A stretch of DNA of 56,390 nt, taken from IMG/VR virus record IMGVR_UViG_3300008450_000048, positions 1 to 56,390 of that record, one strand, 5' to 3'. A program made the translations under genes and the position numbers. Below the pieces are notes generated by a model. The model saw nothing but the letters and a program-made list of their open reading frames with translations. It was not told the DNA's origin and searched no databases. This DNA comes from a virus. Shown one piece after another: positions 11,895 to 50,527 of this stretch. Within the stretch, counting starts at the first letter, position 1; every line of letters begins with the position of its first letter.

Positions 11895-11932
11895 TCAAAA
11901 AGGAAAGGGCCGCCGGTTGGGCAGCCCTTTTA
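11895..11932 (-). terminator. Leader terminator between the P12.0 promoter and the capsid operon
   Basis: On the minus strand an 11-bp stem with one G-U pair (11920-11930 with 11904-11914, five-base loop) is followed by CCUUUUUG. It stands downstream of the operator-promoter at 11991-12019 and before the first gene. Transcripts from that promoter must therefore pass it. An upstream hairpin (about 11955-11985, CGGGG with CCCCG plus an inner stem) precedes it. Confidence 0.8.
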
Positions 11933-11990
11933 AATTTCACACTTCGGAGAGGAGAAACGGGGAATGTCCAGAGACACTGCCCCGCGGGTG

Positions 11991-12019
11991 ATACTACAGC
12001 ATTGTGATAGCAGGTGCAA
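11991..12019 (-). promoter_or_regulatory. Leftward promoter with embedded operator (P12.0)
   Basis: Read leftward: TTGCAC (12019-12014), a 17-base spacer, then TAGTAT (11996-11991). The operator copy at 11994-12009 (TATCACAATGCTG on the minus strand) fills the spacer. It lies between the portal gene and the scaffold/capsid genes. A repressor bound here would block RNA polymerase directly. Confidence 0.75.
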
Positions 12020-12023
12020 CACC

Positions 12024-14255
12024 TTAGATCCCCGATCCTTGACGAACCTTGATGGCGGCCTCCGCATTGAAGATCTGCCGGGAGTTGTCGATCTTCAACA
12101 TCTCCAAACGCTCCTTGGCGGCCAGCTGCTCACGGGTCAGCTGCGCGTCCTGCCCCAGCTTCGTGAGCGCCAGATCCCGTTCCATGGCGCTGTCGGTCAT
12201 GGCGATCTCGTACTCGGCCTGCTCGCGCTGCGCGTTGTAGGCCAGGCTCTGAGACTTCAGATTCATCTCGGCCGTGTTGCGCTGCAACTCAAAATCGCGC
12301 TGCGCCTGGCGGTCCTGCAGCTCGAGCTGTTTGGCTTCCATGTTCATCTGCGCTGCCACGATCCGCGGATCCTGCGGTGCGCCCTGCTCGGCCTGTGCCT
12401 GCTGCTCCTGCGCCACCACGTCCTCCGGCTTCATGATCTCTTCAGGGTTCACGCGGAACGCCTTTAGGATCGCCTTCAGCTCCTCGCGCTCCTTCAAGTG
12501 CGGCGTGTAGCGCGGGTTGTTGGTGATGTTCGCCAGGTTCAGCAGCGCCTGGTTTTGGATGTCGCGCTCGATCAGCGCCGTGCTGCCGCGGGCATCGATT
12601 TCAAAGTCGCCCTTGATCGCAGGATCTGGATCGCTCGACATCTTCCAGTCGTAGTACCTGCCGATGTGCGGACGGGTGATCGAATCGTCGTACAGCTTCA
12701 CTCGCTGGCGCAGGACGGCATTGGCATTGTTATACAACATGACCATCCCGCCGACGGTCTCCGGCGCACTGCCCTGCTCGCCGCCCATGATCTGCGGCAT
12801 CGACGACTCCACGTCCGCAAACTGCATCGCGGCCTGCGCAATCGCCAGCAGCTCTTGCAGGTGGCTGTTGAACTCAAACACGCTGAACGCCTGGCGCACG
12901 TCAGCCATGTCGTCCTTGGCCAGCCAGATCTTGTTCGGCGTGATCTCCCACGAATTGTTCTGCGGGATGACCATGCCCTTCTTCATCACAATCTGGCCAC
13001 CGAGCGACGTGCGGCCGTTGTCCATCACCTGCCGCCATGCTGCGTTAACTACCCGCTGCTGGCTCTCCAGCTCGTCCGGCAGGCCGTAGCCGTAGGGGCT
13101 GCTGTCGCTCTTGCGCCAGCACCACACGTCCACCGGCAGGGTTTTGTCAGCGACCCAAGAATCCATCGCACCGATGACCTTGTCGTTGACGATCACCAGC
13201 ACGCCGAACGTCACGTCGGTCAACGGATCGCCCGTGCGAGATGACAGCATCTCCATCTCTTCCGGCTCAATCTCGCCGTGGTACGTCCACATCTCATAGC
13301 TGTCTTCTTTGATCGTGTCACGCAACACGCGACCCTCAGCCAGCCGCACGCGGTTCGGCTTTTCTCTCAGCACCTCGCGAATGACCTCGGTATCAAAGCC
13401 CGGCAGGCCGACGAGCTGTCGCAGTTCCTTGCGCGTCACATTGCGACGATAGAAAAATCCGCGGCCGCGCTGGTGATCATTGCCGCACGAAGGGTCGAAG
13501 AAAACATCCCACGGATCCAGGCGCATCGATGCCGGGACAATCGTCTCGTTGATCTGCAGCACCTGCGTGCCGTCCGGCTGCGGTAGCCAGACCTTGCTGG
13601 TCTGACGCGCAGGGAACGGGCCGTACATGACCATCGTGCCCAGCCGTATGCCGTCTTCAATGCCCTTGCGGCTCTCGCCGTTGTACTTGCACTCGGTCAG
13701 ACTGTCGTCGATCGACCGCTCCATGGCAGTCGCGGCTTCCTTCGCAGCCTGCATCACCACCTGTGCTTCTTCGTTGGCGGTCATGCCAGTCGGCTCGCCG
13801 GTCGTCGGATCAATGGTCTCGGCGTTGTTGCCGACCATGTCTGCCAAGTCTGGCAGTGGCGTTGGTTTCAGACCCCAGTTGCGATCGTCGACGGGGAACA
13901 GGATCTCGCACATGCGCGCGACCGCCTGGTCGACCTTCGGTCGTACGATGTTGATCACCACTCGAGAGCGGTTACCGTCTTGCGCCTTGCGCGCCGGCGG
14001 TCCGTTCTTCAACGTGTTCTCGAATTCGCTCGGGTTTGCCTCGCCACGGTCACCAAAGTACAGCTGGCTGTTGCGGCGCCAACGCTTCTCCACATCCGAC
14101 GTGCCGCGATGCTGGACCCACTCGTCGCGCATCTTGGTGAACATGCCGTGCAGCTTTTCAATTTCTTGACGCTGATGATGTTCGTACTGCTCTGGCGTCA
14201 TCAGCTCTTCGCCGACCATAACGGCCATGTCTTCTGGGATTTCTTTGGCATTCAT
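12024..14255 (-). CDS. Portal protein
   Basis: About 743 residues from ATG 14255, with AGGA seven bases upstream (a TTG two codons earlier is less likely). N-terminal helices are followed by RRNSQLYFGDRGEANPSEF and RSRVVINIVRPKVDQAVARM, then a long alpha/beta clip/stem region. The C-terminal third is a long Gln/Glu/Ala-rich coiled coil (QQAQAEQGAPQDPRI onward) like the barrel of P22-type portals. It lies directly after terL, with 15 bases between the genes. It forms the dodecameric vertex through which DNA enters and leaves. Confidence 0.85.
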   Translation of the reverse strand: MNAKEIPEDMAVMVGEELMTPEQYEHHQRQEIEKLHGMFTKMRDEWVQHRGTSDVEKRWRRNSQLYFGDRGEANPSEFENTLKNGPPARKAQDGNRSRVVINIVRPKVDQAVARMCEILFPVDDRNWGLKPTPLPDLADMVGNNAETIDPTTGEPTGMTANEEAQVVMQAAKEAATAMERSIDDSLTECKYNGESRKGIEDGIRLGTMVMYGPFPARQTSKVWLPQPDGTQVLQINETIVPASMRLDPWDVFFDPSCGNDHQRGRGFFYRRNVTRKELRQLVGLPGFDTEVIREVLREKPNRVRLAEGRVLRDTIKEDSYEMWTYHGEIEPEEMEMLSSRTGDPLTDVTFGVLVIVNDKVIGAMDSWVADKTLPVDVWCWRKSDSSPYGYGLPDELESQQRVVNAAWRQVMDNGRTSLGGQIVMKKGMVIPQNNSWEITPNKIWLAKDDMADVRQAFSVFEFNSHLQELLAIAQAAMQFADVESSMPQIMGGEQGSAPETVGGMVMLYNNANAVLRQRVKLYDDSITRPHIGRYYDWKMSSDPDPAIKGDFEIDARGSTALIERDIQNQALLNLANITNNPRYTPHLKEREELKAILKAFRVNPEEIMKPEDVVAQEQQAQAEQGAPQDPRIVAAQMNMEAKQLELQDRQAQRDFELQRNTAEMNLKSQSLAYNAQREQAEYEIAMTDSAMERDLALTKLGQDAQLTREQLAAKERLEMLKIDNSRQIFNAEAAIKVRQGSGI

Positions 14256-14270
14256 TTGCAATTCCTTTGA

Positions 14271-15764
14271 TCAATAGCCTGTGACTTCGTCCAGGGCAGC
14301 CCACACCGTCTCAGCGCCAGCCGGCATCGTGTTCCACGTTTCATCTTCATCTGGCCACGGCAGCGTCAAGCTCGGCTCGTCTAATCGCGCCAAACAGTCC
14401 ATGCCGTCATCGAACCGACCGACTGGGAACGTGGCGTACTCCACATCCAGCAGCTCTTGAATCAGCTCGTGCTGGTGGCCCTGCACATCCACGTAGTTGA
14501 GCGACTGCGGCATCCAAATGCGGCCGCCCTCGAACCACGGGATCAGGCGCCGGATGCGAGCGTTCTTCTCCACTGCACCGGCGACCTCAGTGATCTTGAA
14601 CCGGTACTGCCGGTGCTCCATCTCGTTTCTGATGTGCGATATGTCGCCCATCATTCCGTACCGCTCGTAGCGCACCTGCATCGGCTTGTGCTTCTTGTGC
14701 AGCTCGAAAAGTTTGTCCGCGCGCTGCGTCAACGTCAGCCGGTCAATGATCCCGTCAACGATGAATGCGTTGCCGTCGGCCGCAAGCCCCACCACCCACA
14801 TGACCGTGCGATCGCTGCGCTTGCGCTTGCCGGCCGACGTTTGCGGGTCGCCCGCCGGGTCGACCAGAATCACCTTGTTCATTTTCTTCGGCGCGTCGTT
14901 GTAGCGACAGATCCAGCTGCGCTTGAACTCCGCACCCTCGGCTGGCCGTGGCTCCTGCTGGTACAGCGAGATCCATGACCGCGGATCAGACTGCGCCTGG
15001 CGCACCATCTCATCCGTAAACCATTCTTTCCACAGCCGCTCGCCTGGCTCACGGCCCAGCGGGTCGTTGTCGCTTGCAACCATCGGCAGCTTGATGACCT
15101 CCCACCGCTGCGGCTCGCGCTCGAGCAGGCGGCCGGCCAGATCGTCCTCATGCCAGCGGGTCATGATCACCACGATCCGGCCACCCGGCTTCAGACGGGT
15201 CAGCAGATCGTTCGTCCACCACTCCCAAGTCTTCTCGCGCACGCGCTCGGAGTCCGCGTCCTCGCGGCTGCGCACCGGGTCGTCGACCACGATCAGGTCG
15301 CCGCGGCGGCCGGTAACGGATCCACCGACACCGACTGCCGTGTACTCACCACCGTGGTTAGTTCCCCACCGGCCGGCGGCCGTGCTGTCAGCGGCCAGCG
15401 TCACCTGCGGAAACAGCGCCTTGAACTCGACATCGTCCACGCCATTGCGCACCCGGCGGCCGAATCGCTCGGCCAGCTCGGCGGTGTGCGACGCCGCGAT
15501 CACCGACAGCTGCGGGTTGCGGCCAACAAAGTATTCGGGAAAGTAGACGCTGCCGTAGGTGGACTTCGCCGATCCTGGCGGCATCATCACCAGCAGCCGA
15601 TCGCATTCGCCCTTTTCGACCTTGTCCAGCGCGTTCGTCAGCAGGACGTGGTGCGGCGCCAGGCTCATGTCCTCCGGCAGGCGGTACGTGCAGTAGTGCG
15701 GGAACGACTCCCGCGCCTTGCGCCGGGAGAGCAGTTCGTTGGCGGCTTCGGCCGGCGCGATCAA
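14271..15764 (-). CDS. terL: Terminase large subunit
   Basis: A protein of 497 residues. Walker A is MMPPGSAKST (residues 60-69) and Walker B is DLIVVDD (156-162). The RNase H-like nuclease part has acidic residues in VDPAGD (near 302), YERYGMMGD (367-374) and FDDGMDC (451-457). The start is TTG at 15764 with GAGGA six bases upstream, overlapping the stop of the preceding gene. No ATG gives a complete ATPase domain. It cuts and pumps DNA into the prohead together with the small subunit encoded two genes upstream. Confidence 0.93.
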   Translation of the reverse strand: MIAPAEAANELLSRRKARESFPHYCTYRLPEDMSLAPHHVLLTNALDKVEKGECDRLLVMMPPGSAKSTYGSVYFPEYFVGRNPQLSVIAASHTAELAERFGRRVRNGVDDVEFKALFPQVTLAADSTAAGRWGTNHGGEYTAVGVGGSVTGRRGDLIVVDDPVRSREDADSERVREKTWEWWTNDLLTRLKPGGRIVVIMTRWHEDDLAGRLLEREPQRWEVIKLPMVASDNDPLGREPGERLWKEWFTDEMVRQAQSDPRSWISLYQQEPRPAEGAEFKRSWICRYNDAPKKMNKVILVDPAGDPQTSAGKRKRSDRTVMWVVGLAADGNAFIVDGIIDRLTLTQRADKLFELHKKHKPMQVRYERYGMMGDISHIRNEMEHRQYRFKITEVAGAVEKNARIRRLIPWFEGGRIWMPQSLNYVDVQGHQHELIQELLDVEYATFPVGRFDDGMDCLARLDEPSLTLPWPDEDETWNTMPAGAETVWAALDEVTGY

Positions 15765-16108
15765 TCTTTGTCCTCCGGCATAACGCCCTGCTCGTCGGGT
15801 CCAGCAAACGGACTCAAGCCAGCAGCCAGGCGCTTCTGCGCATGGAATACCGCCTTGCCGACGATCGCATCGGTTGGCTCGCCGTCCTCGAGCAAGTGCC
15901 GGATCTCGGCCTTGGTCAGGCCCGGCACCAAGAGCGGGATCTCCAACTCCTTGCCGTCGATGTTCACGCCGACCGACAGCTCGGTGGAGATGTCGCCATC
16001 GGGACGCTTCAACGCGCCAAAGAATCCCATGCCTTTCGGCGTGCCGTCAGTGCGGTTGCCGAAGTTCGCCGGATCGACCGGCATCTGATCTGCGACTAGC
16101 CCTGGCAT
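15761..16108 (-). CDS. Conserved small protein between terS and terL
   Basis: A protein of 115 residues, MPGLVADQMPVDPANFGNRTDG. It has the pattern ELSVGVNIDGKELEIPLLVPGLTKAEIRHLL, followed by a helix (DAIVGKAVFHAQKRLAAG). Similar short proteins often stand beside terminase genes, but their function is unknown. It overlaps terS by one base and terL by four, so it belongs to the packaging operon. Confidence 0.7.
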   Translation of the reverse strand: MPGLVADQMPVDPANFGNRTDGTPKGMGFFGALKRPDGDISTELSVGVNIDGKELEIPLLVPGLTKAEIRHLLEDGEPTDAIVGKAVFHAQKRLAAGLSPFAGPDEQGVMPEDKD

Positions 16109-16599
16109 TACGCGCCCTCCTGCATGCCCTTGGCAGCGATCGCCAGCAGCTCATCGTCCGTCATGGCCAAGAGCTTGATCGGACCGCCGCCTTGCCCCGT
16201 GTGCTCGATCGTCGCCTTGTCGTTGTAGGCGGCGTTCAGCTTCGCAGCGATCTTCATGTTCGTGTCGATCGCCACCTTCAGCCCGGCTGCATCGCCCTGC
16301 GCCGCCGCCTGGCGGCCGTAGTCCAGCGACGCCTCGATCAGGTTGTGCGAGCGCAGGATGTTCGCGTTCGCGTACGTCTCGCGGGTCTCCTCCGACTCCA
16401 TCAGGATCTGGCGCAGTTTCCAGCCGGCAATCTTGAACTTCAGGGTATCGGCAATCGACTGGAAGGATTCGCCCCACACGTAGCGGTCAAAGACCTCGTC
16501 GGCGACGGCCAAGACCTCGGCCTTCAGCTCGTCTGCGGCTTTACGCTTTGGCTCGACGTGCAGCGCCGGGCCGATGTTGGTGGGTCTGCCTTTCTTCAT
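16108..16599 (-). CDS. terS: Terminase small subunit
   Basis: A protein of 163 residues, MKKGRPTNIGPALHVEPKRK. After a basic N-terminus there is a helix-turn-helix-like segment (ESFQSIADTLKFKIAGWKL, residues about 43-61) for DNA recognition. A helical oligomerisation region (SHNLIEASLDYGRQAAAQGD) and a C-terminal tail follow. Size, order and domain layout fit a small terminase subunit that recognises the packaging site and recruits TerL. Confidence 0.8.
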   Translation of the reverse strand: MKKGRPTNIGPALHVEPKRKAADELKAEVLAVADEVFDRYVWGESFQSIADTLKFKIAGWKLRQILMESEETRETYANANILRSHNLIEASLDYGRQAAAQGDAAGLKVAIDTNMKIAAKLNAAYNDKATIEHTGQGGGPIKLLAMTDDELLAIAAKGMQEGA

Positions 16600-16600
16600 G

Positions 16601-16855
16601 TCACCACTTCACTTTGTTGGCCCAGTACGCCGCAGACATCTTGCCTTTGGCAATGTTGTCGGCGTGACGGGCTTTAAATGATTCGTTTCGCTTCGTGCCC
16701 TCGGGCGAACCTTTGACGCCCTGCTGGCCGAAGCGGATCAGCTTCACGTCGTCGCCGGACTTGGCCAGCACGACGTGCGATTTAGTCGGATGGCTGGGCG
16801 TGCGCTTCGGGCTGTTGTAGCCGGAGAACTCCATGCCGCGGTAAATGATGCCCAT
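16601..16855 (-). CDS. Small conserved basic phage protein
   Basis: A protein of 84 residues from ATG 16855 (MGIIYRGMEFSGYNSPKRTP). A longer frame upstream has no coding character and reads over the neighbouring gene, so it was dropped. The C-terminal half (IRFGQQGVKGSPEGTKRNES, then FKARHADN and AYWANKVKW) is a recognisable small basic family found near phage terminases. The many Lys/Arg residues suggest nucleic-acid contact. Function is unknown. Confidence 0.7.
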   Translation of the reverse strand: MGIIYRGMEFSGYNSPKRTPSHPTKSHVVLAKSGDDVKLIRFGQQGVKGSPEGTKRNESFKARHADNIAKGKMSAAYWANKVKW

Positions 16856-16862
16856 GATCAGC

Positions 16863-17036: not shown

Positions 17037-17122
17037 CACCATCTCCGAAAAGGGTGGCCCCGCGATCTCCAACTTTCGTGGGAGACAGTTTCACTACGGT
17101 CAGAGCCGGGGGCCGTAGATAC

Positions 17123-17150
17123 GAAAAAAGCCCGCAGATGCGAGCTTTTC
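17123..17150 (-). terminator. Leader terminator between the P17.2 promoter and the packaging operon
   Basis: Minus strand: an 8-bp-capable stem (AGCTCG with CGGGCT, 17129-17146) followed by six U residues. A second hairpin (GGGGC-AGTGC-GCCCC, 17152-17166) lies immediately upstream. Both stand between the promoter at 17174-17202 and the first gene at 17036. Confidence 0.8.
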
Positions 17151-17173
17151 CGGGGCGCACTGCCCCGCCGGGG

Positions 17174-17202
17174 AATTTACACCAATGTGATACTTCGGTC
17201 AA
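17174..17202 (-). promoter_or_regulatory. Leftward promoter with embedded operator (P17.2)
   Basis: Read leftward: TTGACC (17202-17197), a 17-base spacer, TAAATT (17179-17174). The operator copy lies at 17177-17192 (TATCACATTGGTG on the minus strand). It overlaps the 3' end of the ribbon-helix-helix-like gene region and serves the packaging genes. Confidence 0.75.
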
Positions 17203-17471
17203 TCGTCGATCGTTTGCGGCAGGCGCTGCAGTCCCTGACGGGTGCAGAGCGCCAGAAAACGGATCGCCGCCTGGCACGCCTCGCGGTTGCTGGCGATGCC
17301 CCACTCCTTGCGGATGTACAGGATCGATGCCGACACGTCAGCGTCAAGAGCAAGCTGCAGCTGCCGCGTGCCCCGGTTCCTGCGCACCTTCTGCTGCCGC
17401 TCGGCGTCCGTCATCGCGTGCGGCTTGCGCGAGCGGAAGCCCATCTTCTTTGGCAAGCCGTTGTCAGTCAT
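17199..17471 (-). CDS. Small DNA-binding-like protein (possible ribbon-helix-helix)
   Basis: About 90 residues from ATG 17471 (MTDNGLPKKMGFRSRKPHAM). This start overlaps the stop of the upstream small gene (ATGACTGA). A start three codons earlier is possible. After a basic N-terminus the pattern RQLQLALDADVSASILYIRK, then NREACQAAIRFLAL, resembles a strand-helix-helix DNA-binding fold. No family can be named with confidence. Confidence 0.6.
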   Translation of the reverse strand: MTDNGLPKKMGFRSRKPHAMTDAERQQKVRRNRGTRQLQLALDADVSASILYIRKEWGIASNREACQAAIRFLALCTRQGLQRLPQTIDD

Positions 17472-17559
17472 GCTCACCATCTTTCGACATCACACACAGC
17501 GACGCCAGCAGGATGCCAGCCGCCGCACCGATCAGCATTCCAACGATTAACATTCCCAT
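17464..17559 (-). CDS. 31-residue single-span membrane protein
   Basis: ATG 17559 opens MGMLIVGMLIGAAAGILLAS, followed by LCVMSKDGEHD and stop at 17464. GAGG lies five bases before the ATG, and the stop overlaps the next start, so it is translated within the operon. One hydrophobic segment spans nearly the whole peptide. Function is unknown. Confidence 0.55.
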   Translation of the reverse strand: MGMLIVGMLIGAAAGILLASLCVMSKDGEHD

Positions 17560-17586
17560 GATTGCCTCGCGCAAGTATGTCAATGC

Positions 17587-19566: not shown

Positions 19567-19595
19567 ATTATAAGCTTTGTGATACTTCTAGCCAA
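19567..19595 (-). promoter_or_regulatory. Leftward promoter with embedded operator (P19.6, PR'-like position)
   Basis: Read leftward: TTGGCT (19595-19590), a 17-base spacer, consensus TATAAT (19572-19567). The operator copy at 19569-19584 (TATCACAAAGCTTATA on the minus strand) spans spacer and -10. It overlaps the 3' end of the Q-like gene, the same place as lambda PR' relative to Q. Confidence 0.8.
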
Positions 19596-19935
19596 GGGTT
19601 TTGTCGACAAAGTCCGCGACCATCTGCACCGCCTCGACCAGCAGTCGCTCGTCGTCCTCGCCGGCCGGCAACGTCTTGCGTGACCATGGCCTGAAGTGCC
19701 GGGACAGGACGCGGTAGTGCTCCGCATGCTTGGTGTGCAGGTGCTCGACGGCCGCGGCCACCGCCTGGATCTCGGCGCTTGAGTAGCCGAACACATCGAC
19801 CTCGGTGCTGATCTCGAGCAGGCCGCGGAAGGTCGGCGACACCGACGGCAGGCCAAGCCTCTGCTCAGCGTCGTGCCAGTCCGATCGCGCCCAGCCGTGC
19901 AGCAGCTCGGCAGCCCATGGCGGGTTCAGCTTCAC
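19588..19935 (-). CDS. Candidate late antiterminator (Q-like) by position; otherwise unrecognised
   Basis: A protein of 115 residues, MKLNPPWAAELLHGWARSDW. It is helical. The C-terminal half (EIQAVAAAVEHLHTKHAEHY, then HFRPWSRKTL) has the general look of small Q/ArpU-type regulators with a helix-turn-helix-like end. The position supports this: directly after RusA and an 82-residue small gene, and immediately before the P19.6 promoter, as lambdoid phages place Q. The sequence alone does not prove it. It could be an unrelated small helical protein. Confidence 0.4.
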   Translation of the reverse strand: MKLNPPWAAELLHGWARSDWHDAEQRLGLPSVSPTFRGLLEISTEVDVFGYSSAEIQAVAAAVEHLHTKHAEHYRVLSRHFRPWSRKTLPAGEDDERLLVEAVQMVADFVDKTLG

Positions 19936-20180
19936 ACACGCTCCAGCCTGCAGCCTTCCAGCTCGGTCCGCTTGACCTCGACCACGGTCCGCGTGTACGG
20001 CCAGCCTCGGCTGTCCACAAACACCACGCGCACGCGGTCGTCGCTCTGCCGCATTGATCGCGCTGCCTTGCCGATCGCCAAGTTGGCAAGCTTGCAGCGG
20101 CCAGTGACTGTCTCCCAGGTCTTCGCGCCGTACGGCCGCACCTGGCCGATGAAATAGCCGCTTATCTTTTTGAAAATCAT
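19932..20180 (-). CDS. Unrecognised small protein
   Basis: A protein of 82 residues, MIFKKISGYFIGQVRPYGAK. It is basic, with a beta-rich C-terminal part (RVRVVFVDSRGWPYTRTVVE). It overlaps both the RusA gene and the Q-like gene by ATGA. No family is recognised. Confidence 0.55.
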   Translation of the reverse strand: MIFKKISGYFIGQVRPYGAKTWETVTGRCKLANLAIGKAARSMRQSDDRVRVVFVDSRGWPYTRTVVEVKRTELEGCRLERV

Positions 20181-20593
20181 CGTGTCCCCTCCTCGCTGAC
20201 CTCGACCATCACCCGGCCGCCCTTCACCGGCTCGACCACCTCAAACCCGACGCGCCACTTGCTGTCGTCCACGCCCATCGCATCAGCCAGGCCATCGAGG
20301 CCGGCCTTCATGGACGCGAGCATGTTGTCCCAGTCCCTGGCCCGTTTGTCCGGCGGGAAGAACATCAGATCGACGCGTACGGCGTTTTCTGACCCCCGGA
20401 GGTATCCAAGCCCCGCCAGCTCGCCGATCGCCCTGCAGCGGGCGCGATAGACCCTTTTGAGCTTGCTCGTCACCGCCCAGTGCTCGCGCGCGTTCGGCGA
20501 CAGACGCCGATCAGGCCAAGGAATTTCCAGCAGGAAACTTCTTTTGTGACAAGTCACATTATTAATTTTTTCTATCACTTTGCTGATCTCCAT
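20177..20593 (-). CDS. rusA: RusA-family Holliday junction resolvase
   Basis: Up to 138 residues. The core starts at FLLEIPWPDRRLSPNAREHW and holds the catalytic aspartates in RARDWDNM (D87, D89), GLDGLAD (D100) and VDDSKW. RusA cuts four-way junctions and helps resolve branched DNA before packaging. The start is unclear. ATG 20593 has no ribosome site and lies within an operator copy; GTG at about 20578 has GGAG nine bases upstream. Two operator copies overlap the 5' end. Confidence 0.85.
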   Translation of the reverse strand: MEISKVIEKINNVTCHKRSFLLEIPWPDRRLSPNAREHWAVTSKLKRVYRARCRAIGELAGLGYLRGSENAVRVDLMFFPPDKRARDWDNMLASMKAGLDGLADAMGVDDSKWRVGFEVVEPVKGGRVMVEVSEEGTR

Positions 20594-22935: not shown

Positions 22936-23039
22936 CACGAAATTGCCCTCCCCTGCACTGCCGTGAGCGGGAAGGAAGGTGTGTGAGCGATGATTGTTTT
23001 GACTGCCACTGATGAACCCCCTCAATGCTTGAACCTGGA

Positions 23040-23078
23040 AAAAGAAAGCCGAACGGCAGGCGGCGGTTCAGTCCGCTT
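23040..23078 (-). terminator. Possible leader terminator upstream of the primase gene
   Basis: Minus strand: CUGAAC (23071-23066) can pair with GUUCGG (23054-23049, one G-U pair) and is followed by CUUUCUUUUUCC. It lies between the P23.1 promoter and the primase start. The loop is long (11 bases), so the structure is weaker than the other leader terminators. Confidence 0.4.
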
Positions 23079-23107
23079 TTCGGGAGCTACCCTAGCCGTG
23101 GCTCAAA

Positions 23108-23167: not shown

Positions 23168-23195
23168 TTGCACAAAACTTCACAGCTGTTATGCT
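23168..23195 (+). promoter_or_regulatory. Rightward promoter antisense to the Cro-like gene (PRE-like geometry)
   Basis: TTGCAC (23168-23173), a 16-base spacer, TATGCT (23190-23195). The spacer holds an operator-like 16-mer (23178-23193, CTTCACAGCTGTTATG). Transcription would run antisense through the Cro-like gene and then into the CI-like gene, the geometry of lambda PRE. Confidence 0.5.
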
Positions 23196-23380
23196 CTGCG
23201 CCTCAGAATCTCAGGTGATGCCTTGAGTTTGCCCTTGGTGATGTGCTCGAGCCGCAGCTGCTGCAAGTGGGGAATCTTCCCCCGAGTTCGCCACATGGAG
23301 ATGGTCGGCTGCTGCACGCCGAGTGCCTGGGCGACAGCGACTTGCGATCCGAAGAACTTGATGACTTGGTCTATTTTCAT
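23189..23380 (-). CDS. Cro-like helix-turn-helix regulator
   Basis: A protein of 63 residues, MKIDQVIKFFGSQVAVAQAL. The helix-turn-helix covers residues about 11-32 (SQVAVAQALGVQQPTISMWR), followed by KIPHLQQLRLEHITKGKLKA, the usual short Cro/YdaS-type end. It is divergent from the CI-like gene and is the first gene of the leftward replication arm. It is expected to repress lysogeny functions or moderate early transcription by binding the same operators as the CI-like protein. That binding is inferred. Confidence 0.8.
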   Translation of the reverse strand: MKIDQVIKFFGSQVAVAQALGVQQPTISMWRTRGKIPHLQQLRLEHITKGKLKASPEILRRRA

Positions 23381-23437: not shown

Positions 23438-23458
23438 GGAAAGGGAAGCCCCCTTTTT
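23438..23458 (+). terminator. Terminator-like hairpin in the leader of the CI-like gene
   Basis: AAAGGG (23440-23445), a five-base loop, CCCTTT (23451-23456), then more T residues. It lies between the promoter and the ATG at 23473, where an attenuator would be. No good ribosome site is seen before that ATG. Confidence 0.5.
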
Positions 23459-23472: not shown

Positions 23473-23871
23473 ATGACAAAGCATGTTCCGCAAAACCACG
23501 TAGGCGATAAGCTTGATCCCGCATTTCAGTCCTGGGCCAAGAAGGCCTCTATAGGAGAGAGACTGAGGTGGTTACTTGAGTACCGGGACATGAAACAGAC
23601 GCAACTCGCAGAGACCATTGGCACCACGCAGGCGGCGATATCGAACATCGTCACCAACGCATCACGAAAACCCAGCGCACCGACGCTGCTCAGAATGGCA
23701 GCCGCCCTCCAGGCGTCCGCAGACTGGATCATCACCGGCGACGGGCACCCGTTTGAAGTCTCGACGGTAGGCAAGCGCGCCGAGAAAGACCTGCTGGCAG
23801 CGTTTCGGGACATGGATCCACAAGCCCAAGCGGCGCTGCTTGCTGCCGCGAAGGCGATGTCAAACAAATAA
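23473..23871 (+). CDS. CI-like repressor (XRE family, no peptidase domain)
   Basis: A protein of 132 residues, MTKHVPQNHVGDKLDPAFQS. An XRE helix-turn-helix lies at about residues 28-80 (GERLRWLLEYRDMKQTQLAE, then TIGTTQAAISNIV). The C-terminal 45 residues (KRAEKDLLAAFRDMDPQAQA) are helical. They lack the S24/LexA Ser-Lys protease domain, so RecA-stimulated self-cleavage is not expected. It leads the rightward arm that ends in int, as lambda cI does. It is the best candidate for the protein binding the dispersed operators. Confidence 0.8.
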   Translation: MTKHVPQNHVGDKLDPAFQSWAKKASIGERLRWLLEYRDMKQTQLAETIGTTQAAISNIVTNASRKPSAPTLLRMAAALQASADWIITGDGHPFEVSTVGKRAEKDLLAAFRDMDPQAQAALLAAAKAMSNK

Positions 23872-36345: not shown

Positions 36346-36372
36346 AGACGGGGGCATTGCCCCCATCCTTTA
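36346..36372. terminator. Bidirectional terminator between the two arms
   Basis: GGGGGC-ATT-GCCCCC (36350-36364) lies between the convergent MazG-like gene and the giant virion gene. Short T-rich tracts lie on both sides (ATCCTTTATC, and TCTTTACTC on the other strand). Confidence 0.75.
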
Positions 36373-45300: not shown

Positions 45301-46101
45301 GAGCTGCTGCACTGTCGCCACGTACTGATTGAAGAAACCTTCTTCGCTGAGAACACGCTCCCTGAAACGCTCACGGCTTGCCTTCAGGACATCGGACTCT
45401 GCCGCCTGCAGTTCCTTCTGCGTCTCGCGCAGTGTCTGAGCAATCTCGCTGCTGGGCGCAATGATGTTGATGGGTAGTTGAACGAGACCGACACCACCCT
45501 GCGACAGACTTGAGATTGTGTCGATCGCCCACTCACCAGGCGTTCTAAACTCTTCTGCCTTGGCGTCGCGTGCTCCACGAATATTGACCGGGTCTTTTGC
45601 TTTCTTTACCAGCTCACCAAAGCTTGGCGCGTTGACGCGCTCCATACCTTTGGCAGTACGCTGAACGACTGCGTTGTCGCTCTTTGCCAATCCGCTGCGC
45701 ACAAGGTCAGCTTGAGATGCAGTCTCGGAAGAGATGGGGCCGGCACCGTACGACAAACGGCGATCCAAGTCAGAACGCACTTGCTCGGGCGTGGCTTTGT
45801 AACCATCCATCACGCTCTTTGGTTCCGGCTTGAAAAAGTCGGCCACGCGCTGAATGATGCCGCGCTCATCCTTGGCAGGATTCAGCGGGTTGTCGACAGT
45901 GTCGCGCTTGCCTGGCTGGGGTGCAGCGCGGGGAACTGATGTGGTAGCAAGGAACTGATCCCTTGCAATAGACAAATCTTCTTGCGGAACTTGAGGCGCG
46001 ATCACCGATTCAAAATACTGGTTACGAGCCTCTTCCTGTTCTTCAAGAGAGAGGGCCTGGAATGCGGGGCTTCCCGCTACGTCAGACCATTTCTTTGCCA
46101 T
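36370..46101 (-). CDS. Giant polyvalent virion protein (3243 residues, LPD38-like C-terminus)
   Basis: The N-terminus (MAKKWSDVAGSPAFQALSLE) is common to phage polyvalent proteins. A hydrophobic Gly/Ala stretch lies at about 285-335. A zincin-like motif VLHELRH is near residue 910. A long region with GAPGRYWYENSGKEV follows at about 1185-1650. A His-rich domain (FRAVHDAFGH, ENAWQAH) is near 1900, and a second zincin motif VHEILHHTE is near 2144. The C-terminal third (about 2600-3035) has the amphipathic and membrane-like helices of LPD38. It is probably packaged and ejected with the DNA to protect it or form a trans-envelope path. The peptidase roles are inferred only from motifs. Confidence 0.8.
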   Translation of the reverse strand: MAKKWSDVAGSPAFQALSLEEQEEARNQYFESVIAPQVPQEDLSIARDQFLATTSVPRAAPQPGKRDTVDNPLNPAKDERGIIQRVADFFKPEPKSVMDGYKATPEQVRSDLDRRLSYGAGPISSETASQADLVRSGLAKSDNAVVQRTAKGMERVNAPSFGELVKKAKDPVNIRGARDAKAEEFRTPGEWAIDTISSLSQGGVGLVQLPINIIAPSSEIAQTLRETQKELQAAESDVLKASRERFRERVLSEEGFFNQYVATVQQLVTDPTLTISEAAKQLPNFLGIVGAARVVGAATSGAVNVAGRVSPAVAVSEAITGGGLSTAGRAIGTTTGGVGASMVMAGGDAAGNVYENLTDRDKVPLSVWRQNPDFQKLVKEGKTESQAIEEIATTKARMAALITAPLGLLGYAGAEAAIASRGLGKTAAEALTVKGMAKTAGKDLVGEQLEEGGTQLGSNVVTRTVDPKQSLFEGVPEAMGTALVTSAPFSAAAIRSQYKDAQQQQQQDQMASAGDLTATYLLDPKTYDPTLIDPSQTTRPPGDVATAAPMRSEMNFTPADSPSAKAGLAPIIVPASTEVPDVSTDSATRAATGLGSLTGSDQLGGSLGIPGLGIDDTARIGGDAGSITANAGADVAARGRAGELPPGLSRLPQVDQRATDQDLAARVQAALNPQQDNNANTQPVEQWTGRRGDGYVTEADAGQALPGRQRMFPTLDWKVEQMPSGKYRLAGYEKFDAQVPAAPTRQALPAAGTAAGTVETIGLNAPTQETPRVAQTAQAVQAEAQGQEVPAASARQLPDLLDRQSPVPDAVLAEFARNPRAPDSRASVQAYLDDLVTRGRLPDAPKLGTPDADAETTVSALGRIFGDATGTGNRVVAYSDPRGDNGFALGGIAFVNTSLDSTAIDAPKTVLHELRHVAEQLAASGSKSAQEFTAQLDSIFDDMTDEGKRAYIENFLHKADLAKIADPAEREAKVQAFMTAPATRSEMVADFLGNRAQDREFLIDLAQQDPQGFEGFVRRWLAVVDNLIAKLKGGKTQGTKESAKVDQYIRDLNKAKMVARDALIQFRKGNLAEQQVQVQTEQTAEPVMSRRGAEQVGDFEVRTMKDGTAVVYGDPDAIRAQIPDDVKGRVTKDGIVFTTSAAPRVKAALEGRKTAYSRAGAVLDKLPMKDGKYIGAPAKFNTPGKIPTLRKILRQLADEGAPGRYWYENSGKEVLKMVGGDVQEARKFVALLAIYSPQAKVDANSTFALRAWAQYKNGQPISVKTGSQDRKATEAMQDVDAFWKGEKTGNFFFNLLREIDPSTAGKQGATIDMWMMRAGQYDNDAPTQTQYAFMENETNRLAAELGWEPQQVQAAIWVAMKARMENAGVKKRTEASSEKKGWIRFERDADGKKKRVIIDAQKHRDNWLKYSFEHDVTKDDTQQAKFDFGDGLKRHIGQVSFEARPGRTTGVLPGIHSAPYAQQVAFQQAVQKTFFDEQGNDMLAMRLGLLVDNDILVPGVWQGEVSPSTQLGVAMAPAKGEEGKSKVDPAQAEALNVYAAVAGLVARQEGVGWHRPFYAGTKRDANGLDINLGRPINPREAADLEQAVGQWMADNGKEGWQDSFAFVSSPTGIRVVNFGIITNDILQSDIVSVAEGVLPEFEYRVFASDGDMPTNNWKENPNGESYVQRISAAGRSDVLDWARAVLAPRVQRVFTEFSNEYGWGDAGEIKFSRRDAGDRAGRDQGRGLAPLDGAPRIDGATGPDEQLVAVAEQYARDNGIDLKRQAEYVQVDPERAKRIAQAYEDMPHAPQDPAVKEAYENLVRQTIAQYKALEKAGYKFYFFDETNDPYDGNPWNAMRELRAKKRMGVFATEAGFGTTEAPVDNVMLQDTGITWPYGSVYGKQKRVLANDLFRAVHDAFGHGLEGAGFREQGEENAWQAHVRLFTGSARGAITSETRGQNSWLNYGPYGESNRTAKVEDTVFADQKTGLMPEWTWSEGLVGDMPAFSQREDRSGISQLAYQGYQIVDTPRVQASRKINGIIKKLDDGKLTPAEFELQVRLLADRMANVTATKEANRILSKRERGADIVREKLLAARRRNEVDYDTTEFALWALAQNPAMAEGLGISVREQPANQRGAAGDYNPAAEIMRVFKGRANEGTAVHEILHHTERMMPSAVQDGIRKEWANAYSKALSKADEKQRAALEQMLPAMAGDQAAQKLVRNAFSDGTLSADDHYQLVNPSEYWAVNATDILKRRYEAGSWIRQAKQWLGEMLQKAKGLLGLRSDAPILRGLQAVLDGKGERLSPQMLANVDSFDDIRFSPRQQPIQGQKFYLKGETLTAKQRRIWQDYFLRMKQVQDAIAEQGGVVDEAQDVYLAEALSYGRLQEQLTEFKDKTVKPMLAKLRAAKLETSDLALYAYAMHAKERNAEMSSRNARLASDEGSGMTDQEADDIINAYQADGKLQDLQDIHKDLMAITSTTRLVLLDEGLISQDEFDAYENQYSYYVPLRGFITDESDLVSGEQVRSPRVGGGKGFNIRGKETVRALGRTSRAGHIIENIISDYERAIARAERNNVAKKFLDLVTTNPDPDLWEIDAKRTAASFNKQTGMVQYNKLIDKGEDTVSVKVDGKEVYIKVNDPLLVRALRQAGKDETGEVTKFLVKNLGWFTNLMRNTLTRFNPAFGVTNAVKDFGFASTSMLADLGPKGMALFIKNYANPKQSGPIYEEFRAAGATTGGWHMRNTKDMQKELRRMMTWEGGSGTKFATYRAAKGLLDTLEWVGQYSETQARFAAYKAAREMGLSPARAASIAKEVSTNFNRKGEWGSAMNTAYVFFNAGVQGTAKTLKNLRNPYVMGLMTALTGFSTALAFMAASTGGDDDDGQAYWDKIPDDIKQRNIIIMLPPGDPLIGTGYARVGSRGRYMKIPIQYGLNVFSTLGYQIADVLRHGEDAKRGKTVGQAAINMTSVVFGAFNPMGGAFDPSKPVEVALAAAPSIVDVGIQFGAGVDAFGKPTSPAKSPFDQRPDSENYTPAMAGSWEQRLARWLNSSTGGDAAVAGGIDLAPGTIRNVVRNVTGGTGDFLSSVFVNIPSKMMDPVADINSKDIPILKAFYGEADESTDLSEYYKRRADVMKAADEAGRRAKMGIKFEYDEENVGLQSLGKAAKVYTDLMSELRKRELEIASDDSLSKSDITQMRKDIQRERVSVARDFNALFMQMKRDVESGKFLSKEVLEYEPSEKVQEKAQDYKLERRQKLQDNKERAAGLR

Positions 46102-46104
46102 AGT

Positions 46105-47079
46105 TTATTTCCAGAGAGTTGAATAATCTTTTTTGCCAGTGTTCTTGTCACCAGTTTTTGAAGCCGATGAAGGATTAGCATCTCCCCGCGCTTCTCTCAT
46201 TTGCTTCAACACATTGTCGAGATCTTGTTTCAATTGATCGCGACGCTTCGGATCACGCTCATCCTTGATTGCTTTGCGAAGTGTCTCGGCTTGCGCCTCA
46301 AGCCGGACTTTAGGGCTGCTGCTGTTTGATCCACCACGACCAGTACGCGGGCGACTTGCGCTGATGGTCGCTGCATCAGCCCTCTGCTGATCGATAGGAA
46401 GCTTCGCCTCAAAACGCTCTTGCTTGTTTTCAAGCTCAATCTGCTTCAGCACACTGGTGCGAACATCCTTGTAGTAGTTGATGATGTTCTGATCAGCACC
46501 AATCTCAATCGCGGCCTTCGACTCGTCATCAATGCGTCGCAGTGCGCGCTGACTAGGATCACCAGCACCGTCGATGTAACCAGCCTTGCGGTAGACATCG
46601 CGGTACTGCGGATTCTGTTTGATCAGCTCAGCGAACTGCTCTGGCGTGGTACTCGGAGACTTGCCTTTGATCTGCGACGACAGTCCGGCCAAGCGTTGGG
46701 TGTCAGCCTCAAGCTGGGTCGCATCACGCTGCGCCTCAACCTCATCAGCGCGCTTGCTAATGTCAACCAAGTCTTGCTTCGCTCGTGCGCGGGTGGCCTC
46801 GAGCTTCTCTTCAGCCAACTTCGCTTTCAATCGCTCAAGCGCCTCAGCCTTCTCTTGAGCAGCCTTGGCAGCCGCGTCTTGGCGGTCAAGCAGTGCAGCA
46901 TCTCGAGCAGCCTGCCGCTCGGCAGCCGCTTCGTAGCTCTTCTCTTGACGCGCAGCGTAGGCATCCTCACGCGCAGCCTGGCGGCGGTCTGCAATGTCGG
47001 CAAGCATGAACCTGCCAAACGAATCGCCCGCGTCAGAAATGCCTTTACCGATTCCAGCCCAGATCAGACCGCTGCCCAT
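46105..47079 (-). CDS. Internal virion protein (coiled coil)
   Basis: A protein of 324 residues, MGSGLIWAGIGKGISDAGDS. Residues about 30-130 form a long Ala/Glu/Arg-rich coiled coil (REDAYAARQEKSYEAAAERQ). The C-terminus is charged and disordered. It lies between two other internal-protein candidates and the giant protein gene, in the place of ejection proteins in podoviruses. Confidence 0.65.
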   Translation of the reverse strand: MGSGLIWAGIGKGISDAGDSFGRFMLADIADRRQAAREDAYAARQEKSYEAAAERQAARDAALLDRQDAAAKAAQEKAEALERLKAKLAEEKLEATRARAKQDLVDISKRADEVEAQRDATQLEADTQRLAGLSSQIKGKSPSTTPEQFAELIKQNPQYRDVYRKAGYIDGAGDPSQRALRRIDDESKAAIEIGADQNIINYYKDVRTSVLKQIELENKQERFEAKLPIDQQRADAATISASRPRTGRGGSNSSSPKVRLEAQAETLRKAIKDERDPKRRDQLKQDLDNVLKQMREARGDANPSSASKTGDKNTGKKDYSTLWK

Positions 47080-47081
47080 AA

Positions 47082-47585
47082 TTACACCTCTTCTGTGTTC
47101 TCTTCCGCTGCTTGACGGAACACCGACGGATCAACTTGACTCATCGCCTGGTCAAGCTGAGACGTATCCAATCCTTGCTCTTGCAGATAGCGAAGAACCA
47201 TTTGCTTGAATGCCATCGCTACATTCTCCGGCTGCGGATCAAGACCAGACGCGTTAGCGATCTCCACTACTTCTTCGAGAACTTTCATCGCCAACGGCAC
47301 AAGCAGCTCGTCAGGTACTTGCCCGTTCGTTCTCTCATCTATAACTGCTGTGATATCGTAGGCAACATTCGCCAACGCATCTGTCAGATCGCCAGCAGAT
47401 TTCAACTGCTTTGATACATCCATGGCAGCTTCGTTGCTGTACAAAGACTCCATCGCCAGCGCAAGAGCTTCCTGAAACTTCGGGTCGCTTTCGTCAACCT
47501 CTGGCTCACCTTGATTGGCACCCATTGCCATCTCTGGCGGCATGCCCTCTGCTTCCTGCATTTCATTTGCAATTAATCCGGCCAT
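47082..47585 (-). CDS. Acidic virion-associated protein
   Basis: A protein of 167 residues, MAGLIANEMQEAEGMPPEMA. It is acidic and helical (DELLVPLAMKVLEEVVEIAN). It is two bases from the next gene and part of the internal-protein operon. No family is recognised. An operator-like string (47335-47350) occurs inside but may be chance. Confidence 0.6.
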   Translation of the reverse strand: MAGLIANEMQEAEGMPPEMAMGANQGEPEVDESDPKFQEALALAMESLYSNEAAMDVSKQLKSAGDLTDALANVAYDITAVIDERTNGQVPDELLVPLAMKVLEEVVEIANASGLDPQPENVAMAFKQMVLRYLQEQGLDTSQLDQAMSQVDPSVFRQAAEENTEEV

Positions 47586-47595
47586 GATTTACTCC

Positions 47596-48507
47596 TTATG
47601 CAGTTGGCATCGCGTACGGGTTGTAGGGCGCCAAGCGGCGGCGCATGTCTTCTGCGTACCTTTCTTGTGGCGTCATGTAACCGGCAACCAGACCGGTCTG
47701 CGGGGATTGCGCATACGTTCCAGGTGATGAAGCAGCAGGGTCTGCGTTACCAGAACCCGACCACCAGCTTGTGCCGACGTTTTCGTTGTAACGATTGCGA
47801 GCCAATTGAGCTTGCTCTTGCTCGTACCTGCGCTGCTCTTCCATCGCCTTCTGCTGACCAGCGCCTTGGATCGCGCCCCCTGCGAGCTGCATGCTGCCCT
47901 GCACAGCAGCCATCTTTCCGTAGTCACCTAAGCTGTTCCAAGCGCCGGAGATAATGCCGGGATTGGGAGGTGGCGCAGTTACGGCTTGAGCTGGTGAAGT
48001 CCAATATGTACCTGGCGTAGTAGCGGCACTAGCCGGCGCTGAAGATAAAGTTGTGCCAGCCGCGGTCTGGCCGCTCGGGCCAACGCTTCCGTATCCACCA
48101 GCGCCAGCAGGGAAGCCGCCACCAGCAGCAGACACAGCCGCCGCATTCGCTGCGTTTACCGCAGAAGAACCAGCTGCATAAGAGCCGGTAAAGCCGCTGC
48201 CAAGCGAGCTGCCTGCTGCTGAGAATTGGCCGCCCATCGCCGCGCTTGCCGCGCCGGTTAGACCAGACCAAGCGTTTGCGATGCCAGCCGTAGCGCCCTT
48301 TAGGGCGCCCCCTATAGTCCCCATAAATCCCGTGCTGGCAGAGGCACCTCCCATGGCCCCCATGATGGCTGCGCCACCAAAGTAAACGGTTGCCGCAGCA
48401 AGCAAGACTTTGCCGATCGGAGACTTGGCAACACTCTTGACGACGTTGACTACACCTTTGACGACCTTGCCAATTGCTCGGCCAACACTCTTAACAACTT
48501 TACTCAT
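47596..48507 (-). CDS. Gly/Ala-rich internal virion protein with amphipathic N-terminus
   Basis: A protein of 303 residues, MSKVVKSVGRAIGKVVKGVV. The first 50 residues are a repeated V-K-x amphipathic helix leading to a hydrophobic Ala/Gly segment (VLLAAATVYFGGAAIMGAMG). The middle is low complexity. The C-terminus has a coiled segment (QQKAMEEQRRYEQEQAQLAR). It should be a membrane-active ejection protein. Confidence 0.7.
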   Translation of the reverse strand: MSKVVKSVGRAIGKVVKGVVNVVKSVAKSPIGKVLLAAATVYFGGAAIMGAMGGASASTGFMGTIGGALKGATAGIANAWSGLTGAASAAMGGQFSAAGSSLGSGFTGSYAAGSSAVNAANAAAVSAAGGGFPAGAGGYGSVGPSGQTAAGTTLSSAPASAATTPGTYWTSPAQAVTAPPPNPGIISGAWNSLGDYGKMAAVQGSMQLAGGAIQGAGQQKAMEEQRRYEQEQAQLARNRYNENVGTSWWSGSGNADPAASSPGTYAQSPQTGLVAGYMTPQERYAEDMRRRLAPYNPYAMPTA

Positions 48508-48944
48508 GATGCACCTCTTACGTATGTGAGATTTAGCGACTCGCGTGAGAACCCGACCCGTTTAAAGAATCGAACAAGCCTCGGATCAACACCAGGCTCA
48601 AGCTCAATGATTGCCAGCTTGATGGCTGGACGACTCTTTACCCAACGAACAAACTCCCGCAGCAATGGCAAGCCAGCACCCGGTACACGGCTGTAGTAAA
48701 GCAGCACGGAGCACTGCATCCGTTCAAACCAGAATGCTGGCTGTACACACGCCCCCATTGCCGCCACCACCTTGCCCGCATCTTCAGCAACCCACACAAA
48801 GTGCGCCGGCCCCAAGCACGTCTTAGCCGTCTCTGCCATCGCTTCTCGGTCAATGCGCACCGGCAGCGGGTCTTTCGACACCGACTCAACGGCGATGTCA
48901 ACGATGGCTGGAATGTCGCTCATGGTTGCTTTTCTAAAGATCAT
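48504..48944 (-). CDS. GNAT N-acetyltransferase
   Basis: A protein of 146 residues from ATG 48944 (MIFRKATMSDIPAIVDIAVE), overlapping the upstream stop by ATGA; a longer frame to 48992 reads into that gene. The GNAT fold is seen in FVWVAEDAGKVVAAMGACVQ, then YYSRVPGAGLPLLREFVRWV and FFKRVGFSRESLNLTYV. Its place between two internal virion genes suggests it modifies a virion protein or acts in late infection. The substrate is unknown. Confidence 0.8.
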   Translation of the reverse strand: MIFRKATMSDIPAIVDIAVESVSKDPLPVRIDREAMAETAKTCLGPAHFVWVAEDAGKVVAAMGACVQPAFWFERMQCSVLLYYSRVPGAGLPLLREFVRWVKSRPAIKLAIIELEPGVDPRLVRFFKRVGFSRESLNLTYVRGAS

Positions 48945-50419
48945 GCAGTCGGTAAACCTGGAATGGTTGTTCCGTAAAACTTGTTCGCCCACGCAATCTG
49001 CGAGTTCGCGTAATTAATCACGCTTTGAATTGCACGGCTCTTGGGGCTTGATCCAGCCGGAGCCGTTCCATCAACCTTTCCACTCAAGTTCGGATCAGCA
49101 CCAATCGTGTTAATGCTGGCAGCCGTTGTGTTACTGATCTGCAAAGCAAAGTTCGCCGGAATCTGCGAGTTGGTCAGGTTTTTCTGGAAAGCTTGCGCAT
49201 CGTCTTGCAAGAAGATTTGCTGCTGACGATCCAGTCCTGCCTGCGCAGCAGTGAACGACTGCTGCATCTGAGTGATCGCAACCTGATGCGCTTGCTGATC
49301 GTTCTGCATCTTCTCCTGCTGAACACGATCCAAGCTCGACTGAGAAGCGGCAAAGTCGTTCTGCGCTTTCTGCAAAGCCATCTGGTTGGCCGCGCTCTTG
49401 TCTTGCAAGAACGCCTGCTGCGCGCGCTCGAGGGCAGACTGCGAAGCAGAAAAATCCTGCTGGAATTTTGTGAGGTCTTTCTGCAGCACTGCTTGACGCT
49501 CAACCAATGTGGTTTGCTGCGTACGGTCAAGAGCCGACTGAGCTGCATTAAAGTCGTTCTGCGCCTTCTGGAGCGCCATCTGATTTGCTGCGCTCTTGTC
49601 CTGCAAAAATGCTTGTTGAGCACGATCCAATGCAGACTGAGCGGCAGTAAAGTTTTGCTGACTGGTCTGCAGGTTGGTCTGCAGACTACGATCCAACGAA
49701 GATTGCCCGGCTTGGAACGTCTGCTGCTCGCGCTGCAAGGAGGTCTGCTGCGTACGATCCAGCGCACTCTGCGCAGCCGCAAAGTTCTGTTGAGCCACTT
49801 GCAAAGCTTGTTGAGCTTCAATGCTCTTGTCTGCCAATGCAGTCTGCTGCGCACGGTCAAGCTGTGCCTGAGCAGCCGTAAAGTTCTGCTTGACGTTTTC
49901 CAGAGTCGAAGTGAACGACTGCGACCCCAGACGCTCAGATGTCGTGAACTGACGATTGATGTTGGATTGACCGGCCTCAAACTCTTGAGCACCTTTCTGC
50001 AAGCCAAACTGGTTGATGGCACCAGCGCCAAACTCGTTGGCGCGATTTGTCGCACCCATGTTTTCAGATGCCGTCACCGCATAGGTCTGCGCATCCTGCT
50101 GCGCCATCGGCAGCGCACGGTCAACCATGGCGGCCACGCCTGCGCCCTGATTCATGGAGCTGTTGACCAGACCCCGCTGCGCCATGCCTTGTGTGGCCAG
50201 CGTTCTGGCGCGCTGCATAAGCGGGCTGTCTTTTGACAGGATGCTGTTGACCTGCCCTTGTACCGTCTCAGTCTGGGCGTTGACTTGGCGCGTCTGTGGA
50301 TCGTAAGTTGCGACACTGTTAGACGGCGGCAGCGCCGAAGCTACCAAGCCAGTCGTTGTGTTCGGATTGGTCGCAGACTTCTGCTGGGTGTCAAAGGGGT
50401 TTTGAACAGTCGTAGCCAT
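48941..50419 (-). CDS. Repeat-rich coiled-coil virion protein
   Basis: A protein of 492 residues, MATTVQNPFDTQQKSATNPN. Residues about 170-410 hold eight copies of a motif of the type NFTAAQSALDRAQQ, separated by 4-20 residues. A 25-residue string starting RAQQAFLQDKSAANQMALQK occurs twice without change. The region is predicted helical and Gln/Ala-rich. The C-terminus ends FYGTTIPGLPTA. It is the first gene after the P50.5 module and opens the internal-protein operon. Confidence 0.7.
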   Translation of the reverse strand: MATTVQNPFDTQQKSATNPNTTTGLVASALPPSNSVATYDPQTRQVNAQTETVQGQVNSILSKDSPLMQRARTLATQGMAQRGLVNSSMNQGAGVAAMVDRALPMAQQDAQTYAVTASENMGATNRANEFGAGAINQFGLQKGAQEFEAGQSNINRQFTTSERLGSQSFTSTLENVKQNFTAAQAQLDRAQQTALADKSIEAQQALQVAQQNFAAAQSALDRTQQTSLQREQQTFQAGQSSLDRSLQTNLQTSQQNFTAAQSALDRAQQAFLQDKSAANQMALQKAQNDFNAAQSALDRTQQTTLVERQAVLQKDLTKFQQDFSASQSALERAQQAFLQDKSAANQMALQKAQNDFAASQSSLDRVQQEKMQNDQQAHQVAITQMQQSFTAAQAGLDRQQQIFLQDDAQAFQKNLTNSQIPANFALQISNTTAASINTIGADPNLSGKVDGTAPAGSSPKSRAIQSVINYANSQIAWANKFYGTTIPGLPTA

Positions 50420-50430
50420 CTCCGGCCTTT

Positions 50431-50460
50431 CAAACAGAAACGCCCCGACAAAGCGGGGCG
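50431..50460 (-). terminator. Leader terminator between the P50.5 promoter and the internal-protein operon
   Basis: Minus strand: CGCCCCG-CUUUGU-CGGGGCG (50441-50460) followed by UUUCUGUUUG. A hairpin upstream (GCGGG with CCCGC, 50464-50492, plus an inner TGCG/CGCA stem) stands first in the leader. Confidence 0.85.
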
Positions 50461-50497
50461 AGCGCGGGCTGCGAGAAAGCGCAATAACCCGCAGTCA

Positions 50498-50527
50498 ATT
50501 CTAAACCAATGTGATACTCAATGCCAA
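50498..50527 (-). promoter_or_regulatory. Leftward promoter with embedded operator (P50.5)
   Basis: Read leftward: TTGGCA (50527-50522), an 18-base spacer, TAGAAT (50503-50498). The operator copy is 50501-50516 (minus-strand TATCACATTGG). It serves the genes for internal virion proteins. Confidence 0.75.

Follow-up and report, generated by a model that had tools for sequence, protein, structure and literature searches.

Genome map and the three late leaders

The window (the whole stretch of DNA analysed here, 56,390 bases) belongs to an uncultured temperate phage. A 114-base direct repeat is found at both ends (1–114 and 56277–56390), and the contig therefore probably represents a circular map in full. 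The plus-strand genes extend from a CI-like repressor gene at 23473 up to about 36.3 kb. The remaining genes are on the minus strand: they begin with a P22-type Cro, continue with a primase-helicase and RusA, and lead into the late genes, which pass around the circle; the last of them encodes a 3,243-aa protein and ends at 36370. The landmarks of the early region are as follows.

20177–20593, minus strand: RusA-like Holliday junction resolvase, the synteny marker
23189–23380, minus strand: P22-type Cro (PF14549, 61.9 bits)
23473–23871, plus strand: CI-like HTH repressor of 132 aa; a peptidase domain was not found in family scans

A sequence-only reading of this DNA had described a promoter, a hairpin and a terminator lying before the first gene at P12.0, P17.2 and P50.5. 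This anatomy is borne out at all three places, all on the minus strand. Each module consists, in this order, of a sigma-70-type promoter, an element CGGGnnAnTnY, a 5′-terminal hairpin, an intrinsic terminator and then the first gene. P17.2 heads the terminase and portal block, P12.0 heads the scaffold-like, capsid, tail and lysis genes, and P50.5 heads a block encoding a coiled-coil protein and the giant protein. All parts listed below are on the minus strand.

P12.0
11991–12019, minus: core promoter, −35 TTGCAC (12019–12014), 17-bp spacer, −10 TAGTAT (11996–11991), with homologues in relatives
11995–12009, minus: operator-like site in the spacer, TATCACAATGCTGTA (24.5 bits)
11973–11984, minus: leader element CGGGGCAGTGTC, 6 nt past the −10 (22.6 bits, window out of training)
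11957–11986, minus: 5′-terminal leader hairpin (class z = −7.7)
11895–11932, minus: intrinsic terminator ahead of the next gene, stem 11930–11904 followed by CCTTTTTGA

P17.2
17174–17202, minus: core promoter, −35 TTGACC, 17-bp spacer, −10 TAAATT; the −35 overlaps the stop codon of the gene at 17199–17480
17178–17192, minus: operator-like site in the spacer, TATCACATTGGTGTA (22.8 bits)
17156–17167, minus: leader element CGGGGCAGTGCG, 6 nt past the −10 (23.3 bits)
17152–17166, minus: 5′-terminal hairpin GGGGC-AGTGC-GCCCC (class z = −10.7)
17122–17152, minus: intrinsic terminator GAAAAGCTCGCATCTGCGGGCTTTTTT, from folding

P50.5
50498–50527, minus: core promoter, −35 TTGGCA, 18-bp spacer, −10 TAGAAT, with homologues in near-complete relatives
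50502–50516, minus: operator-like site in the spacer, TATCACATTGGTTTA (23.6 bits)
50480–50491, minus: leader element CGGGTTATTGCG, 6 nt past the −10 (23.3 bits)
50466–50492, minus: 5′-terminal leader hairpin (whole-leader z only −1.7)
50430–50462, minus: intrinsic terminator with a weak T tract, CGCCCCGCTTTGTCGGGGCG followed by TTTCTGTTTG

Counted alone, terminator-like hairpins in the window are not significantly enriched (17 found versus 17.4 expected), and promoter-like sites show no excess over shuffles. The modules are therefore judged real by their shared rigid layout and not by signal counts.

Three other features were seen in the late region. In the interval that separates the P17.2 terminator from the terminase genes (17054–17115, minus strand), a block of the form GGCCCCCGGC...GTCTCCC...GGGGCC is conserved in relatives and is a possible cos or terminase site. 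A strong hairpin lies behind the gene at 8652–9167 (8590–8635, minus strand) and has a TTCG loop in most relatives. An internal terminator at 8615 was considered here and rejected: the hairpin is kept in relatives and the T tract is mostly absent from them, so it was not counted as a terminator; it is perhaps an mRNA-stabilising end. The gene adjoining the capsid gene (9179–9691, minus strand) is HNH/endonuclease VII-like and possibly encodes a homing endonuclease.

The leaders in related phages

We collected relatives through a terminase search, which gave 72 related contigs. Because these are metagenomic contigs, some module copies are near-duplicates. The comparison of leaders in related phages, which the sequence-only reading had proposed, places modules at the same three positions in dozens of relatives. 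In the close family (TerL identity of at least 77%) there are about 60 distinct copies; a broader count, 66, takes in a few matches due to chance, such as those of L054, L063 and L086. Three modules are present in the near-complete relatives, apart from one (G004) that has four. Modules are also present in records found independently via the protein encoded at 19588. The module was not found in distant relatives (TerL identity below 50%) or in the GenBank phages MW202426 and StenR_269. One contig with a good late module and a TerL of 78% identity (L152) had been binned as a Chloroflexota MAG, and is probably a phage contig placed in that bin.

The P17.2 module exists in 35 of the 35 relatives holding the region; 32 were detected by a regular expression, and three were recognised by eye, two with the module further upstream (L007 and L008) and one with a changed −10 (L039). 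In 12 records the portal gene is followed at once by the P12.0 module. In other records 0.7–4 kb of accessory genes stand behind the portal gene and the module still fronts its usual downstream gene, as judged in records long enough to show the site. Thus, the P12.0 module is not merely the end of the upstream operon. This bears on the possibility that the modules are ordinary operon borders, where terminators of upstream operons and promoters of the next ones stand in an incidental order and the terminators are leaky. All three modules are intergenic and the T tract of the P50.5 terminator is weak, as such borders would allow. However, every copy has its promoter ahead of its terminator, the module goes with its downstream gene even where different genes stand upstream, and incidental borders leave the rigid spacing described below unexplained; we regard this explanation as quite improbable.

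We then investigated the leader element. A start string common to the P12.0 and P17.2 leaders had been noticed before; it is real, and P50.5 has a form of it as well (CGGGTTATTGCG), which had been missed. CGGGnnAnTnY begins exactly 6 nt after the −10 at all three window modules and is predicted to occupy about +1 to +11 of the transcript. A scoring matrix trained on the relatives alone, with the window excluded, finds exactly three sites in the window (22.6, 23.3 and 23.3 bits); the next best site scores 10.1 bits, and the maximum in shuffled windows is 13.7 bits. The 6-nt distance is kept in nearly all module copies, and constant spacing of this kind suggests that the element acts in connection with polymerase at the promoter. 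Within the element, the A is nearly invariant and is followed four bases on by a pyrimidine, and these two positions could represent a degenerate −10-like element; the −10-like sigma-pause hexamer nAnnnT occurs in only 44% of module copies. CGGGnnAnTnY may also resemble the general pause consensus.

If transcription starts 7–8 bases past the −10, as assumed here, the RNA begins with GGG. Each predicted leader RNA has one 5′-end hairpin and a terminator hairpin, and that of P12.0 has a small extra stem between them. Compared with shuffles, the leaders fold with z = −4.0 (P12.0), −4.7 (P17.2) and −1.7 (P50.5). When only the first 18–36 bases are compared with shuffles that keep the conserved 11, z is −10.7 for the P17.2 class and −7.7 for the P12.0 class, the classes having been sorted by a script that left a few P12.0-type leaders in the former and two chance matches in the latter; it is −1.7 for the P50.5 class of four sequences. 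Folding at P50.5 is unexceptional against shuffles in this respect, and the case for this module therefore rests on conservation in relatives. Across relatives, the module terminator stems fold at −11.7 to −23.6 kcal/mol. The stem pairs of the P17.2 hairpin vary in relatives with the pairing kept (GGGG/CCCC, GGGA/TCCC, GGGC/GCCC and GGAG/CTCC), while covariation in the inner stem of P12.0 was not convincing against slid controls.

Such folds raise the possibility that the modules make stable hairpin RNAs of 45–90 nt that act in trans, the late genes being transcribed by read-through or from elsewhere. Lambda 6S RNA and the int-alpA RNA are examples of short stable hairpin RNAs with which the leaders can be compared. 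The leaders do fold as a 5′-terminal hairpin plus a terminator, their folding exceeds that of shuffles retaining the conserved 11 nt, and the int-alpA sRNA family occurs in another leader of the same phage (see below). On the other hand, the sole conserved sequence is +1 to +11, whose distance from the −10 is fixed and which lies largely within the hairpin, whereas the single-stranded middle varies among loci and relatives. In addition, the three copies always head late operons, and the P17.2 leader matches no Rfam family above threshold. Late leaders dedicated to trans-acting RNAs thus appear unlikely.

Candidate factors and a proposed repeated antitermination switch

Of the genes between RusA and P17.2, two small ones occur universally among the relatives.

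19588–19935, minus strand: 115-aa protein, candidate Q-like antiterminator by universal presence, gene order and a weak Q profile match
17199–17480, minus strand: 93-aa protein, second candidate late regulator, universal and immediately upstream of P17.2

The 115-aa protein (19588) is present in every relative holding the region, and the order RusA, small orf, 19588 matches rusA, ylcG, quuD(Q) in prophage DLP12. When compared by hhalign to a profile built from eight QuuD-type Q proteins, the 19588 family profile aligned in order over 63 columns (P = 0.0018, probability 15%), and its score of 24.2 exceeded those of all 60 column-shuffled controls (maximum 21.0), which is suggestive of kinship to Q. 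Neither PF06530 (the Pfam family of Q) nor any other Pfam, PHROG or NCBIfam family matched 19588. Its AlphaFold model (pLDDT 79.5) matched no solved structure or Q fold in the PDB, a sequence search for solved structures returned none, matches in the viral fold library were all unnamed or doubtful (E 0.04 or worse), and no relatives were found among GenBank phages. The suspicion that 19588 may be an antiterminator had arisen from the sequence; the backing for it is circumstantial (universality, the RusA-orf-Q order and the weak profile match). Taken alone, the assignment of 19588 as the likely antiterminator has slightly less than even odds.

The 93-aa protein (17199) shows no similarity to the QuuD-type Q profile. 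It is predicted to have a strand-helix-helix fold with a basic N-terminus, where the strand is our assignment for an extended segment that precedes the two helices. Fold matches to it in the PDB are weak (E 1.7 or worse), with antitoxins among them. A phage protein such as 17199 might bind the 5′-terminal hairpin, or the hairpin might act alone like the put RNA of HK022. The short stem and loop at P17.2, with pairing kept by different pairs, fit such an RNA site, and 17199 is universal, basic at its N-terminus and encoded right before P17.2. However, the pairing partners in the hairpin differ between P17.2 and P12.0, the inner stem of P12.0 lacks convincing covariation, and an RNA site needs no fixed distance from the −10. 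We consider antitermination through an RNA site or another factor of this kind improbable.

Several PR′-tR′-like modules in one genome, as first proposed from the sequence, are well supported by the anatomy of the modules and by their conservation across dozens of relatives. Our preferred reading, to which we give a probability of roughly 0.6, is that they form a Q-like processive antitermination switch that operates at three points in the late region, so that reading of the late genes would probably require a phage protein that takes RNA polymerase past the stop. The host RNA polymerase would start at the sigma-70 promoter of each module, which is recognised from its sequence, and the conserved first transcribed bases would slow or mark it. 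When the phage factor is missing, the polymerase would stop after 40–90 nt at the intrinsic terminator and release a short RNA that has two main hairpins. An antiterminator from the early operon, most likely 19588, would load onto the early complex and make the polymerase terminator-resistant, so that the late genes are read. Repeating the module would add antiterminated polymerases again along the approximately 37-kb late region. It is a more tentative suggestion, one that we would not favour at present, that CGGGnnAnTnY is a new element for antiterminator loading or pausing that acts in the first transcribed bases and not in the −35/−10 spacer, and that one factor serves three to four late promoters per phage.

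A single Q switch, as in lambda, is the textbook form of late control. The modules described here share with the lambdoid PR′-tR′ and Q systems (lambda, 21 and 82/DLP12 QuuD) a sigma-70 late promoter, a terminator before the first late gene and a candidate Q in the RusA-orf-Q position. They differ in being three and not one, in having no common spacer element and a conserved element just downstream of the −10 instead, and in that the candidate protein is only weakly Q-like. We found no element common to all modules in the −35/−10 spacers; a module-specific Q-binding element (QBE) is a separate possibility. The Q proteins of phages 21 and lambda depend on two elements, one for binding that is located between −35 and −10 and a −10-like one for pausing in the first transcribed bases (PMC6606751), and AlpA of Pseudomonas aeruginosa acts likewise at two promoters and needs a −10-like sequence (PMC7969949, PMC9371919). 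The combination of a promoter-proximal terminator with an antiterminator is thus known from lambda and 21 Q (PMC6606751) and from AlpA (PMC7969949). AlpA is similar to our proposal in that one antiterminator serves more than one promoter and the terminators lie upstream of the first gene; unlike here, its element GGGACG is located between −35 and −10, and it controls host genes at two loci and not a phage late region (PMC7969949, PMC9371919). GafZ of the Caulobacter gene transfer agent antiterminates phage-like late genes from a dedicated promoter, but its element is also between −35 and −10, it has one target and it acts jointly with GafY and IHF (PMC11150451).

If our reading of a repeated Q-like switch is true, the switch recurs at every late block with a rigid element tied to the transcription start, and this would show antitermination to be capable of a modular form. 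The approximately 60 natural variants are material for learning what an antiterminator needs at a promoter, and late promoters and terminators would become predictable in a group of uncultured phages.

Operator sites and the primase and CI leaders

The operator-like sites within the modules belong to a larger set, TATCACAATG. The 15-mer TATCACAwTGnTnTA has 28 matches of at least 12 bits in the window, compared with 0–4 in shuffles, and 17 of the 18 strong sites point with transcription. The orientation was taken from the gene map, as strand assignment by longest ORF was misled by shadow ORFs in this GC-rich DNA. In the window the operator lies in the spacer of P12.0, P17.2 and P50.5. In the P50.5 modules of four relatives (G002, G003, G007 and G016) it lies over the −35 region, and it is absent from nine P17.2 copies of the G003 group. 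Thus, the operator, which had been described as part of the module, is more probably a binding site for a repressor or for Cro, distinct from the element behind the −10. We also considered TATCACAATG as a Q-binding element and rejected it as a general explanation, since its place varies and some modules have no site. The P22-type Cro (23189–23380) is likely to bind the operators. In a lysogen, the CI-like or Cro-like repressor at these sites would hold the same late promoters off.

Two further leaders had been taken as weaker versions of the module, and neither is one. The stretch at 23040–23078 in the primase leader is part of an int-alpA RNA and has no late element.

23034–23102, minus strand: int-alpA RNA in the primase leader (RF02996, 42.8 bits against a gathering threshold of 35.8, positions 1–71 of 71)

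The cro and primase genes flank this RNA, which follows directly on an operator site and has a terminator at its end. Full-length int-alpA RNAs were also found in two relatives, L080 of G003 (7943–8008, minus strand) and L130 of G015 (6–76, plus strand). The int-alpA RNA shares a phage with the late leaders but differs from them as an RNA and lacks their element. In the CI leader, 23438–23458 is a hairpin with no T run, no terminator and no element.

Palindromic forms of the operator, TATCACAATTGTGAA, are located near the immunity genes of G001. Other sites are asymmetric and scattered, some of them inside genes, and often stand just before ribosome-binding sites (examples of such scattered sites are 53790, 24502, 26296 and 34360 in the window; 47241, 48744 and 50620 in G001). 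As a lead, the sites before ribosome-binding sites recall the stoperators of L5-type phages. The TATCACAATG sites resemble these stoperators (PMC9283540) in being asymmetric, scattered, oriented with transcription and placed in promoters or short intergenic gaps; they differ in that some overlap promoters and in that the immunity region has palindromic versions. The L5-type repressor has two domains, binds as a monomer and halts elongation, whereas family scans place the repressor of this phage among the DicA/P22-like HTH proteins. An operator site also overlaps the start of a DUF5856 gene (53398–53808, minus strand; PHROG 858, ‘starvation-inducible regulator’), which is present in five near-complete relatives.
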